Shown here piece after piece: positions 28,189-33,344 of a stretch of 33,344 nt of DNA. The notes beneath the pieces were generated by a model. That model did no database searches, had not been told where the DNA came from, and saw only the letters and a program-made list of their open reading frames with translations. Both the position numbers and the translations under genes were made by a program. The DNA is from Halocatena pleomorpha (lineage in GTDB: Archaea > Halobacteriota > Halobacteria > Halobacteriales > Haloarculaceae). The first letter of the stretch is position 1; every line of letters starts with the position of its first letter. The DNA lies in NCBI RefSeq assembly GCF_003862495.1, contig NZ_RRCH01000045.1, forward strand, positions 1 to 33,344. The letters run 5' to 3'.

Positions 28189-31008
28189 TTACCGAGTTTC
28201 AAGTTTCTGTTGGAGGATCGTCGGGGCGTCCGCCAATGCCGCATCGAGCGCGTCGACATCTGGTCCGCCGCCCTGCGCGAAGTCCGGTGGTCCGCCACCA
28301 CCACCACCGACGCGGTCTGCGAGTTCACGCACCACTTCGCCGGCGTTGACATCTACTTTTTCTGGAACAGCGACCACGAACTGGGCGCTCTCTTGGCCGC
28401 TTCCTAGCACGGCGACCGACTCCTCTTCTGCGATCGCGGTCGCGGTCGCACGAAGCTCCTCGACATCGGCGTCAAACCGTTCGACCACCGCGGTGGTCCC
28501 ATTACCGTTGATGGCAACCTCCTCGGTCGCACCGCCGTGTGCGCGAATCTCGGCTAGTTCCTCTTTCAGCGCGTCGATCCGTTTGCCGCGGTCTTTCCAC
28601 TCCTCGAAGAACCGCTCCGCCGTGTCGGGCACTTCGAGCGGCGAAACGTCCAGCGTTTCTGCGGTCTCAGACAAGGCAGTTTCGACGCGCTGAGTGGCGT
28701 CGATAGCCGCATCACCAGCCGAAAAGACGATTCGCTCGACACCGTCTTGGACGCGTTCGGTCGAACGAATCTTGATACAGCCGATATCACCGGTTCGTCC
28801 GACGTGCGTCCCGGCACACGCCTGCACGTCGTCATCAACGTGGATCAGCCGGATGTTCGTCCCCGGCGGGATGCCACCCTGATAGATATCAAAGCCGTAC
28901 TGTTCTTCGGCCACGTGTCTGTCTGGCCACTCCTGCACGACGGGCGTGTTGTCCCGCACGATCCGGTTTGCGATCCGTTCGATCTCCTGTCGTTGTGCCC
29001 TGGAAATCCGCTCGTAGTGGGTGACGTCCAGCCGCGAGCTGTCGATGCCCTTCTGAGCACCAGCCTGACGGACGTGGTCACCGAGCACTTCTCGGGCTGA
29101 GTGACCGATGATGTGCGTCGCGGTGTGATGGGCCATCAGCCGCTTTCGACGCGTCGCGTCGATCTGTCCCCGGACGAACTCGCCTTTTCCGGGGTCGTCG
29201 TCGGTCCAATGAAGGATGACGCCGTCCCGCTGTTGGACATCGTGGACATTGGCTGACGTATCATCCGTGCTGAGCGCTCCAGTGTCAGCAGGCTGTCCAC
29301 CTCCCTCTGGGTAGAACATCGTCTGATCGAGCACCACGGCGAATCCCTCTTCGCGCTCGATCACGTCGAGGACGATCGCCTCGAACTCCATGCGGTCTTG
29401 ATCGTCGTAGTACAGCTGTTCCGTCGGCGGCAACTCGCTGACGTGCGCTTTGAGATCGTCGTGGTCCGTCTCCTCCTGTGTCGCTGTCGTGTCCGTCTGC
29501 TTTTCGTCCGCTACGGCACTGGACGGCTCGGTGTGGCGAGCGGCGACCAGTGAGAAGAAATCGTCCGGAATCTCGACTGATGCGCCGTGTTCTTCAGCAA
29601 TCTCAGCGACCATGTCAGGCTGCATTCCGTGCGAGTCGTACAGCTCGATGAGTTCCGTCGTCGAAATGGGTTCGTCCGTGTTCGCATACTCCTCAGCGAG
29701 CTGTCTGACCCGGCGACCACCACGGTCAAGGGTTTCGCGGTATTTTTCCAGTTCCGTCCGGACGATATCACGGATGGTGTCACGATTCGTGTATCCGAGG
29801 CGTTCAGCCTGCATGTCAACGAGTTCGTCGAGCGGTGCGCTGACGCCCACCGTGTTGGTGAGCCGCTTGGTTCGTCGGAGCACCATGCGAACGAGATAGC
29901 CGGACTCAACGTTGCTCGGTACGATACCATCGCCAAGCATGTACGCCAGCGTTCGGGAGTGATCCGCGATGGCGTAAATCGTTTCGAGCGGCTCCATCAG
30001 CTCCCGAAGCCGATCGACATCGACACCGAGTTCTTCCGCGATATCCGCGCGAGCACTCTCCATGTCCTCGGCCTCGTCGATGTCGAGGTTGCCAGCCAGC
30101 GTCGCCGCACGGTGGACGAGCGCGTCCTCCTCGTCGGTCAAGTCGATACCCGCGTTCTCCCGCAGGAACGAGATCATCTCGGGATAGACGGCCTCATACA
30201 CCGTCGGCGTCCCCTGACTCACCCACGTCCAGCGCTCCAGACCGTACCCGGTGTCGACGATGTACGTGTCCATCTTCGAATACCGGTTGCCGTCGGGCAT
30301 TTCGTACTCGCCCTCAGGATCCTCTTCCATCGAGAGGAACACGAGTGTCGCCAGTTCGACGCCCCGATAGATGACTTCAAGCGCCGGCCCGGCGTTGCCA
30401 CCGCCAACCCATGGATACTCGATATAGATGAGTTCAGTCAGATCCACGCCCATCGATTCGAAAAACTCATCGCAGTACTGGACTGTTCGGTCCTTCCAGT
30501 ACGTTTCCCCCTGGTAGGCGTAACCCTCTGCGTCTTCACGGGTGTTGAAGGCGTGGTGAGCCATCATTTCGAACGCCATCGTGTGACGCCCCGTTTTGCC
30601 GACGTTTTGGATGTCGTCCATCCGGATGGAGGGTTGGCTGATACACAACGGGTTCGCGGGGGGAGGGGCCTGCCCACTCGTGATGAGCGGCTGGAAATCG
30701 TAGATAGACGCCTGCGTTAACAAGACATCATCCCGCCAGCGATTGGCTGCGACGGGATAGGGATCGATGCGCTCGTGGTCGTTATCCTCGAAAAATGAAA
30801 GGAACTCCTCACGCATCTCTTCGAGCGTGTACGACGCGTCGAATCCGGGGTTGCCGATGAAACTGTACTGTTCACACGGCGGTTCACCACACGTTTTGCG
30901 TGCTTCGTCACGGGTCCAGAAATGCGCGCCACAGGAGACACACTCCTTTCGGGTAAACCCCTCCTGCTCGAAATAGTCGAGCTGATACTCCTCGTCGAGT
31001 TCACTCAT
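28189..31008 (-). CDS. alaS: Alanyl-tRNA synthetase, archaeal type
   Basis: This 939-residue class II synthetase charges tRNA-Ala. The archaeal N-terminus has a Zn-type Cys set C23, C26, C40 and C45 ([21 protein letters not shown]). The class II core includes [20 protein letters not shown]. The editing domain has [19 protein letters not shown] and [11 protein letters not shown], the metal-binding residues that hydrolyse mischarged Ser/Gly-tRNA. The C-Ala/DHHA1 domain ends in [17 protein letters not shown]. Length and domain order match archaeal AlaRS. A TTTTAC box (31034-31039) lies 26-31 bases before ATG 31008. The alpha/beta hydrolase gene follows it. Confidence 0.97.
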
Positions 31009-31033
31009 CGCGTTTCATTTGGCCGACCACCGG

Positions 31034-31039
31034 GTAAAA
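31034..31039 (-). promoter_or_regulatory. TATA box of alaS
   Basis: TTTTAC on the minus strand, 26-31 bases before ATG 31008, is a standard leaderless spacing. Confidence 0.5.
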
Positions 31040-31173
31040 CCCTTCCGAACACCCGTCTTAGACGCTTGTTTATATTTTATTTGTTCTCCTGTTGTCAAAA
31101 TATATGAAAAAGATTATATTTAGTGATTGGTGGCTCAATCACATCTCACAAGCGGAGAAGCAGATCGGAACCG

Positions 31174-32139
31174 TCACTCGTCCAGCGCGAGTCCCGCTAA
31201 CAACGCTTCCAGTTGCACGCGTTCGTTGGCACCGATCGTAAGACGGTAGTCAGTTTCCCCGATCCGATCCATCAGCTGAACCGCCTCGCGTTCTCCGAGG
31301 TCGTACTCCCACACAGACCGGTGGAGTTGGTCGATGATGTCGTCGCCTGCGATCCCTTCCTCGGTGAGCAACGTTTCAAGGGTCGAACGCGCTGCCATGA
31401 AATCGCCCGCAAGCGCGAGTTGAACCATCTCTTTGATTTCCTCTGGGCGGGCGGTGCTGGCGATACTGTACACCGTTTCTTCGTCGACCGTCTCACCCAC
31501 GACGCCCGCCGCCTGTAAGTCGTTGATGGCTTTGCGCATGTCACCCCCAGCAGCGTACACGAGCGCGTCAATCCCTGCGTCGGTGATTTCAATCCCCTCC
31601 GCGCCGGCAATCTGGCGGAGTTGGCCGGCGATCGCGTCGTCTGCCAACGGCGAAAACCGGAACACCGTACACCGTGACTGGATCGGATCGATGATCTTGC
31701 TCGAATAGTTACACGAGAGGATGAACCGTGTATTGTGCGAAAACTGCTCCATCGTCCGCCGGAGCGCGCTTTGAGCGTCAGATGTCAACGCATCCGCCTC
31801 ATCGAGAAATATGATCCTGTAGTCGTACCCGCCGAAACTCGATCGTGCAAAGCTCTTGATACGATCACGCACCACGTCGATCCCCCGCTCGTCGGAGGCG
31901 TTCAACTCCAAGAAGTTTTCCCGCCATTGCTCGCCGTAGATCTCCTTGGCGATCGCCACCGAGCATGTAGTTTTGCCAACACCTGCTGGGCCTGCAAACA
32001 GCAAGTGAGGTAGATCGTTCTGTTCGATGTAATTTTCGAGTCGTTGGACGATGGTCTCGTGTCCAGCGACCGCAGACAGCGATTCGGGGCGGTACTTCTC
32101 GATCCACACCTCCCGACCCTCCGGTGGCGCGTCACTCAT
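31174..32139 (-). CDS. rfcS: Replication factor C small subunit
   Basis: This 321-residue AAA+ clamp-loader subunit opens and loads PCNA on primed DNA together with the large subunit. The RFC N-terminal box is [12 protein letters not shown]. Walker A is GPAGVGKTT (G50-T58), Walker B is [10 protein letters not shown] (D113-E-A-D116), and the sensor strand is [19 protein letters not shown] with the SRC arginine finger R156. The C-terminal collar helices are present. No intein interrupts the Walker A site, unlike in some haloarchaeal homologs. A GTTAAG box at 32163-32168 is 24-29 bases before the ATG. Confidence 0.97.
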
Positions 32140-32162
32140 ACTCGCATCTCACAGCGTCCGGA

Positions 32163-32168
32163 CTTAAC
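32163..32168 (-). promoter_or_regulatory. TATA-like box of rfcS
   Basis: GTTAAG on the minus strand, 24-29 bases before ATG 32139. Confidence 0.4.
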
Positions 32169-32215
32169 TGGCTTGCAGTCCGGTCGTCCGAGTCACTGGA
32201 TCGCTTGCTGCAGCG

Positions 32216-32299
32216 TCAGGATTCGTCTGTGTGCGCGCGAATGTGGCCGACGTGAGCAGCGTATTCCGTTTCGTGGACGGCTTCAATCAGTCGGCCAGT
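32216..32299 (-). pseudogene. Possible C-terminal fragment of a gene cut by the terminal-repeat cassette
   Basis: Reading the minus strand from the left end of the inverted-repeat cassette gives TGRLIEAVHETEYAAHVGHI and then RAHTDES before a TGA at 32216-32218. The peptide is acidic and helix-like, and codon choice resembles neighbouring genes. It looks like the tail of a haloarchaeal protein whose upstream part is missing. I cannot name the family. Joining it to the sequence at the right flank (33270 onward) does not give a continuous frame, so the donor gene was either disrupted imperfectly or this is chance. Confidence 0.25.
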
Positions 32300-32372
32300 C
32301 CCACCTTTTTTCCGCTCGGGTGGCTACGCCACCCTCACGCAAAAAATCTGGACCAAAAAAAAGCCGCTCGCT
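32300..32372 (+). repeat. Left terminal inverted repeat
   Basis: Pairs with 33197-33269. It contains an internal palindrome GGTGGCTACGCCACC (32319-32333) that can fold back, T6 and A6/A8 tracts, and GCCGCTCGCT at the inner edge. Read from the minus strand, GGC followed by T8 could end transcription of the cassette gene. Confidence 0.7.
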
Positions 32373-32411
32373 CCGCTTTGCTACGCTCGCGGTGACTACA
32401 CTTGCATCTCC

Positions 32412-32495
32412 CGCTTCCGCACCGCGACCGCTTCCGCCCCGCTTCCGCACCGCGACCGCTTCCGCCCCGCTTCCGCCCCGCTTCCGCACCGCAAC
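32412..32495 (+). repeat. Nested minisatellite of 17- and 11-base units
   Basis: The order is A-B-A-B-B-A'. A is CGCTTCCGCACCGCGAC (17 bases) and B is CGCTTCCGCCC (11 bases, nearly the start of A). Unit starts are 32412, 32429, 32440, 32457, 32468 and 32479. The last A has GCAAC for GCGAC. The minus strand is G-rich with repeated GCGGAAGCGGGG. It lies just downstream of the cassette gene. Confidence 0.85.
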
Positions 32496-32530
32496 CGTCT
32501 CCGCCGCCGCGACCGCCGACTCTGCTGTTC

Positions 32531-33082
32531 TCAGTCGTCGGCGTGGACGACGGGAGCCTCGCTCACGACACGCGCCACCTCTGGATACTGCTGTCTCAAT
32601 CCGTCGAGATCACCGCGCTGGCGATAGTGGCAGTACTCCGCCAGCATCTCTACTAACCTGGCTGGGGCACTCGTCGCCGCGGGCTGTTCAGTTATCTCGG
32701 TCGGCTCTTGCTCGTCCTCGGGCGTGTACACCGACTGGGCGACGGTCCCATCACGCTGTTCGTGATACCGCACCCGGCCGCCATTCTCGAACCAGCCGGT
32801 GGCGACCATTTCGCCTGTCGCCTCATACCGCGTGATGTTCGCAATCCCGGGGAGATCGTCGTCGTTCACCTGTGACCGGCCAAGCCCGGCCGTCGCTAGA
32901 ATCTCCTCGATCTGCGTGGCGTGGGCGCAGCCGGTACTCCGACAGGGCTTACACCACGTTCCTGTCCCCACGTCCACGACGTAGTACAACTCCGCTTTCG
33001 AGATCCGGCTTCGATCATCAAGAGTCGAGATGTTCACCGATTCGCCCAGCCGGTCCCAGAACTGAAACACTGGCAACGTCAT
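32531..33082 (-). CDS. Cassette-encoded protein with SWIM-like zinc knuckle
   Basis: This is a 183-residue protein not from any family that I can name. An N-terminal beta-rich domain (SKAELYYVVDVGTGTWCKPC) carries C44, C47, C52 and H54, spaced C-x2-C-x4-C-x-H. That is close to the CxC-xn-CxH zinc knuckle of SWIM domains found in DNA-binding and recombination proteins. Residues 70-120 form a second block with GIANITRYEATGEMVATGWF. A Glu/Thr/Pro/Ala linker (121-140) leads to a C-terminal helical segment (ARLVEMLAEYCHYRQRGDLD). ATG 33082 is preferred over ATG 33124: it follows the purine-rich GCGGGGGGAAGAAG, and the upstream extension is repeat-like. It is the only gene between the inverted repeats. 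Confidence 0.65.
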   Translation of the reverse strand: MTLPVFQFWDRLGESVNISTLDDRSRISKAELYYVVDVGTGTWCKPCRSTGCAHATQIEEILATAGLGRSQVNDDDLPGIANITRYEATGEMVATGWFENGGRVRYHEQRDGTVAQSVYTPEDEQEPTEITEQPAATSAPARLVEMLAEYCHYRQRGDLDGLRQQYPEVARVVSEAPVVHADD

Positions 33083-33196
33083 CTTCTTCCCCCCGCGAGC
33101 GAAGTTCCCGCGAGCGGGAGCCAACGAGTCGCAGCGCGAACGAAGTGAGCGACCGGCTCGTCAAACGAGCGGCTTGTTTGGCTATCCCGCGAGCGC
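33083..33196. promoter_or_regulatory. Upstream region of the cassette gene
   Basis: GC-rich, with the hairpin TCCCGC-GA-GCGGGA at 33106-33119 and GCTCG-TCAAA-CGAGC near 33155-33169. No convincing TATA box could be seen. GCGAGCGCAGCGAGC (33189-33203) overlaps the inner edge of the right repeat. Confidence 0.3.
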
Positions 33197-33269
33197 AGCG
33201 AGCGGCTTTTTTTGGTCCAGATTTTTTGTGCGAGCGGTAGCGAAGCTACCCGAGCGGAAAAAAGGTGGG
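33197..33269 (-). repeat. Right terminal inverted repeat
   Basis: Pairs with 32300-32372. It has its own internal palindrome GGTAGCGAAGCTACC (33236-33250) in the same place as the left copy's but with a different sequence, so the two hairpins have diverged while keeping the ability to fold. Confidence 0.7.
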
Positions 33270-33344
33270 TCATCGACGACCCTTCCAGCAATGGACACCC
33301 CCACCCGATGCGCGTGCCGCGACCGAATCGGACGGCCACAGTTT

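Follow-up and report, generated by a model that had tools for sequence, protein, structure and literature searches.

Dispersed palindromic modules flank a gene of a two-gene operon in Halocatena

REP and REPIN elements, which go with RAYT proteins, are intergenic palindromes with fixed flanking bases that occur in inverted pairs, and bidirectional intrinsic terminators place hairpins and T-tracts at the ends of genes, commonly where two convergent genes meet. Haloarchaea carry further small repeats: the SMR-A and SMR-B elements of Haloquadratum walsbyi are free of transposase genes, have inverted repeats unrelated to known transposons and were described with an unknown mobiliser, and the PATEs of Haloquadratum share their ends with IS605-type transposons (PMC3119063). 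Here we analyse a window of 33,344 nucleotides from Halocatena pleomorpha (contig NZ_RRCH01000045.1), in which an earlier note had read positions 32300-33269 as a cassette with inverted, hairpin-bearing ends and one cargo gene. We regard it as reasonably probable that each end is a separately placed copy of a palindromic module dispersed among haloarchaea, and that the presumed cargo is part of a two-gene operon specific to Halocatena.

The inverted ends and the operon they interrupt

A repeat search of the window recovered the inverted ends described in the earlier note as three matching pairs of arms, 32300-32333 with 33236-33269 (34 nt, 91%), 32334-32361 with 33207-33234 (28 nt, 93%) and 32356-32377 with 33192-33213 (22 nt, 95%). 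The perfect 21-base outer block of 32300-33269 and the palindrome that each end holds with bases of its own also agree with that note. The core TTTTTGGTCCAGATTTTT matches the window's genome 16 times, 15 of them exactly, with none for a reversed control, and a query with the whole cassette found about 10 gene-bearing relatives and many end-only fragments in this draft genome, many of whose contigs break at cassette or end matches. The left module (32300-32384, + strand; covariance model match 32301-32384, +) is defined by that match and by the inverted arms, and reads CCACC-T6-hairpin 2-A6-TCTGGACC-A8 followed by the side of hairpin 1. The module is downstream of gene 2 and points hairpin 1 at that gene, the orientation of a terminator. 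Between the two is a 3′ untranslated stretch rich in CCGC/GCGG (32385-32530, − strand), and comparable GCGG-rich stretches adjoin solo modules in other genera. Gene 2 (32531-33082, − strand), delimited by alignment and invariant columns, encodes 183 amino acids beginning MTLPVFQFWD; a TTG start at 33124 was ruled out in favour of the ATG at 33082. A spacer with more small hairpins (33083-33184) separates its start from the right module (33185-33269, − strand; covariance model match 33185-33268, −), which sits between gene 1 and gene 2 with its CCACC end abutting the stop codon of gene 1. The motif ATGAC stands on both sides of this module, at 33078-33082 (− strand) on the side of gene 2 and at 33269-33273 (− strand), where it contains the gene 1 stop TGA, on the side of gene 1.

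The right end had been taken as the boundary of the unit, yet conserved sequence extends beyond 33269 as far as the end of the contig (33344). It consists of the 3′ part of gene 1 (33270-33344, − strand), which encodes a small CxxC...HxxxC zinc-finger protein and is cut by the contig end; full operon copies elsewhere extend about 270-300 bp beyond this point. Compared with intact copies, the remnant at 33270-33344 carries two single-base frame differences, attributable to decay or assembly error. On the other side lies a gene for the replication factor C small subunit (31174-32139, − strand; Pfam Rep_fac_C and AAA), and blastn of the flanks places this flank at the opposite side of the operon in genome G003 (locus L091).

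In several copies, a 48-residue CxxC/HxxxC protein is encoded directly before gene 2. The stop codon of this gene 1 and the start codon of gene 2 overlap as ATGA; a promoter and long leader precede gene 1. Gene 2 proteins share an invariant W-C-x2-C-x4-C-x-H signature, a putative zinc-binding, SWIM-like motif. Searches with the gene 2 protein gave no match in Pfam or NCBIfam, no PDB fold match at E<0.08 by sequence profile and nothing significant in Foldseek with a structure model of mean pLDDT 70, and none of these four resources revealed a fold or motif of a known recombinase or nuclease in the operon proteins. The leader RNA, highly conserved in every subfamily, folds into a three-way junction in which 7 of 21 pairs show compensated changes and one arm carries a hypervariable loop of 6-7 nt (for example, L096:4087-4214); an Rfam scan of the loci returned only tRNAs and no family for the leader. 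A short insert, likely a small hairpin, interrupts gene 2 at the same Trp-Cys codon site in L039:3001-3634, L037, L048, L054, L056 and several copies in G005.

Four Halocatena genomes each hold roughly 16-36 full-length copies of the operon. Among 39 related genomes the gene 2 protein is confined to this genus, and a profile search of named genomes found it only in strains of Halocatena, namely YIM 93972 ('Actinarchaeum halophilum', now Halocatena halophila), YIM A00010 and YIM A00013. A genome-wide scan with a single gene 2 protein as query found nothing; phages yielded no relatives, and plasmids one weak partial match, in Natrinema. The major chromosome carries nearly all copies (p 0.008 to 3e-12); subfamilies A and B of G001 and G004 occupy separate chromosome arcs (p 0.005 and 0.002) with one shared exception. 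Many copies stand at corresponding sites in the window's genome and G003, and same-site copies mostly group together in the tree, a clustering on which whole-genome concerted evolution of the copies was rejected. For operon copies not shared between G001 and G004, the flanks are rearranged or repetitive, so empty sites are unreadable there. Paralogues within a genome show dN/dS of 0.05-0.14 at dS 0.6-1.1, and same-locus orthologues of G001 and G004 0.03-0.12; the low paralogue values indicate copies under purifying selection, not dead cargo. The earlier description of the gene as mobile cargo of paired ends did not hold up: the bracketed gene belongs to an operon of old copies that evolve under purifying selection and in many cases occupy shared sites, and the A subfamily of G001 and G004 has neither hairpin modules nor terminal repeats. 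The operon copies probably make up a functional multigene family, with the three-way-junction leader RNA governing translation, and the spread of the operon is probably older than the modules and separable from them. Amplified and selected only in Halocatena, whose group includes members that form hyphae and spores (PMC10067837), it is a candidate regulatory system of this lineage, made up of two putative zinc-binding proteins and a structured leader RNA of a new type.

Module anatomy, distribution and position at gene ends

Aligned modules share the consensus CCACC-T6-NCG-hairpin-CGN-A6-NNTGGNNN-A6, with a second hairpin next in most copies. The first hairpin covaries: across 50 modules its stem is paired in 98% of cells, against 41-50% in slid controls, and the whole module structure contains 48 two-sided changes compared with 15 ± 2.5 in shuffles. 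These compensatory changes bear out the earlier proposal, made from the two ends of the window, that the fold is kept while the bases change. Every module is by itself an inverted repeat (CCANNT6...A6NNTGG), and the module model spans 85 positions without coding capacity. The 8-base core is conserved in a manner unrelated to pairing, the CCACC end is constant, and the opposite, hairpin-1 end of the insert varies. Further hairpins lie inside the TCTG/GACC core as nested palindromes at L089:3429, L090:3890, L093:4776 and other loci. A literature search with a 13-base core produced a sole, irrelevant match, and the ends are apparently copies of a hairpin repeat not described before.

Among the 342 genomes of the order, 50 carry the 20-base module core; they represent 20 of 89 genera, and a reversed control gave no matches. 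The covariance model gave 80 matches in the window's genome and 85 in G003, which correspond to about 40 modules each as the palindromic modules often score on both strands; it gave 26-37 in each of three other genera and none in G002. Among the matches listed, all those in G003 lie on the main chromosome, and a search of viral contigs returned one unrelated AT-rich match. Between 21 and 53% of modules have a stop codon 0-12 bp, and mostly 0-4 bp, ahead of their CCACC end, compared with about 6% of random positions (16 of 30 in other genera, 13 of 33 in G003, 8 of 25 in the window's genome and 8 of 38 in G005). Detailed sampling of three other genera showed mostly solo modules, often with CCACC just past a stop. 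The expectation that the ends would be found as pairs is thus upheld in part: inverted pairs do recur, but isolated modules predominate in these genera. At L274 and L275, in two other genera, a module and its flank are duplicated in tandem.

Modules have the hairpin and T-tract at gene 3′ ends that characterize intrinsic terminators. Their U-tracts and hairpins may stop transcription on both sides, which would make each module a portable bidirectional terminator. We infer this function from sequence; bidirectional termination would lead to modules being kept where they insulate genes. Two modules at the borders of one gene probably form an inverted pair by virtue of their orientations and not as the ends of a transposon.

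Insertion, target duplication and paired modules

Evidence that modules insert comes from the junction of pheS and pheT, which holds a module in the window's genome and G005 and none in G003, and is also uninterrupted in G001, G002, G004, G007, G008, G018, G058 and G120, representing several genera. The flanks of the G005 insertion overlap by exactly 20 bp (query 599-618), demonstrating insertion with target duplication at this site; presence in the window's genome and G005 and absence from G003 requires precise loss or separate gains. Insertion with long duplications is strongly indicated at further sites. Among modules screened for repeats, direct repeats of 98, 92, 72, 44, 80 and 88 bp end at or within a few bp of CCACC, and among 40 modules chosen blind to repeats, five in G018 have duplications of 99, 92, 60, 44 and 27 bp, two more repeat matches being set aside as tandem module copies; the long duplications come mainly from one other genome, G018, and usually regenerate a gene end.

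Modules have also inserted at the junction of gene 1 and gene 2 in many operon copies. Six operons of G003 (L093, L095, L096, L098, L099 and L100) run directly from gene 1 into gene 2, and operon copies without a module at this junction have one ATGAC each, whereas in other copies a module occupies the junction and ATGAC flanks it on each side, a duplication that splits the overlapping stop and start codons. A longer repeat at this junction of L039 is weak, at about 18 of 24 bases, and inspection of the flanks of the window's own right end found no long repeat. Comparing insertion points for target duplications, as the earlier note had advised, disclosed duplications of 20-99 bp, which regenerate the broken gene end. 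Insertion probably proceeds at the level of DNA, through strand breaks set far apart from each other.

Modules also bracket other genes. In G003 a YgaP-like membrane gene (Pfam PF11127) lies between inverted modules, and the window's genome has the same flanks and the same gene with its orientation reversed. In G058, of another genus, NAC and methyltransferase genes, named from their translations, lie within an inverted pair of modules that have a core variant of their own. Inverted pairs about 0.5-3 kb apart with varied cargo, which the earlier note had anticipated, do recur, and so do relatives without the cassette: in G001, G002 and G004 the site of the G003 cassette is only about 130 bp long, although these are diverged relatives in which exact joints are not readable. 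Three operon loci are reversed relative to G003, but these and the replication factor C flank of the window are at contig ends or in rearranged stretches; the window's genome is a short-read-like draft in which most operon inversions fall at contig ends, the G003-cassette locus being the sole one with both flanks on a single contig of that genome. Recombination between modules may produce such inversions and larger rearrangements. Flanks are swapped between module-bearing loci of the window's genome and G003 (window 28615-32322, L037, L091 and L097), which suggests large rearrangements at modules.

We put forward, tentatively, as a possibility short of an even chance, that these observations describe palindromic elements of about 85 bp found across haloarchaea, operating without a reverse transcriptase or known transposase, which enter gene ends by way of breaks set far apart, deliver a bidirectional terminator there while duplicating 20-99 bp and so restoring the gene end, and, when paired in inverted orientation, form invertible cassettes. 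An unlikely alternative is the one originally envisaged, a non-autonomous cassette that moves with its gene as a unit when a Y1/HUH-type enzyme acting in trans recognizes its hairpin ends. The inverted end pairs, the second cassette with another gene, the structure-conserving hairpins and the seven Y1 transposases of the window's genome would all suit it, although no autonomous element with the same ends came to light. To our knowledge, hairpin-recognising Y1/HUH transposition leaves no target duplication, and the 20-99 bp duplications speak against such an enzyme, as do the mostly solo modules of the other genera sampled, the A-type operon copies without modules, the several copies without the right module and the many operon copies at orthologous sites under purifying selection.

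Retroposition in the manner of SINEs and LINEs, in which nicked target DNA receives a copy of an RNA with ...A6GGTGG at its end, is an improbable source of modules, despite being compatible with the constant CCACC end, the variable hairpin-1 end and the 20-99 bp duplications. A solo module at L045 (2094 onward) carries the last codons of gene 2, as read by eye, and is apparently a 5′-truncated operon copy of the kind that retroposition would leave. A PF00078 reverse transcriptase was nevertheless found in only 1 of 11 module-bearing or related genomes and is missing from the other 10, in a search for which control genomes gave the expected matches. Elsewhere, the last 30 or so codons of gene 2, the 3′ untranslated region and the module are repeated in tandem, each repeat beginning again at almost the same codon (L037:4297-5038, L047:673-1077, L092, L098, L160 and L175).

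It is equally doubtful that the modules are ordinary immobile terminators, alike by convergence or gene conversion. This account would explain the position just past stop codons and the hairpin-plus-T-tract anatomy. It is contradicted by module presence and absence at pheS-pheT with a 20-bp duplication and, among paralogous operons, between gene 1 and gene 2, as well as by long duplications that adjoin the constant end and by an 8-base core unrelated to pairing. Least likely of all is that operon and module together form an active transposon with gene 1 and gene 2 as mobility proteins: the 16-36 dispersed copies with sharp borders and proteins under purifying selection are outweighed by copies at sites common to species, a tree that follows mostly locus, proteins in which no fold or motif of a known recombinase or nuclease was recognized, and A-type copies without terminal repeats.

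Comparison with known systems

Archaeal transcription termination is seldom discussed together with the small mobile repeats of haloarchaea, and the module would link the two subjects if it is a transposable terminator, one that would rewire gene borders and split translationally coupled pairs such as gene 1/gene 2 and pheS/pheT. None of the common transposase families considered matches target duplications as long and variable as those of the module. Relative to bidirectional intrinsic terminators, modules are distinguished by their T6-hairpin-A6 polarity, fixed 8-base core and transposition-like duplications. They resemble REP/REPIN elements as intergenic palindromes with fixed flanking bases and inverted pairing, but no GTAG tag was seen, and they have U/A tracts and the 8-base core. 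MITEs have terminal inverted repeats in common with a full transposon and make target duplications of fixed length, whereas those of modules vary from 20 to 99 bp. IS200/IS605 (Y1) elements have subterminal hairpins on the same strand, no duplication and TnpA; here the ends are inverted, the target is duplicated and no transposase lies inside. With SINE-like retroposons, modules share a constant 3′ end, a variable 5′ end and a variable target duplication, but the reverse transcriptase that would act in trans, PF00078, appears in 1 of 11 genomes.

The closest likenesses are among the haloarchaeal repeats. PATEs of Haloquadratum are, like modules, non-coding, present in many copies and palindromic near their ends, but they lack inverted terminal repeats and target duplications (PMC3119063), whereas each module is itself an inverted repeat and duplicates 20-99 bp. 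SMR-A and SMR-B are alike in size (about 110 bp, compared with the 85 positions of the module model), inverted repeats, freedom from transposase, tens of copies per genome and variable presence between strains. SMR-A is reported to target PATE/IS605 palindromes, while the CCACC end of modules often adjoins the stop codons of ordinary genes, and no target duplications are reported for SMR-A/B (PMC3119063); as described, these are set apart from modules, with their duplications of 20-99 bp.
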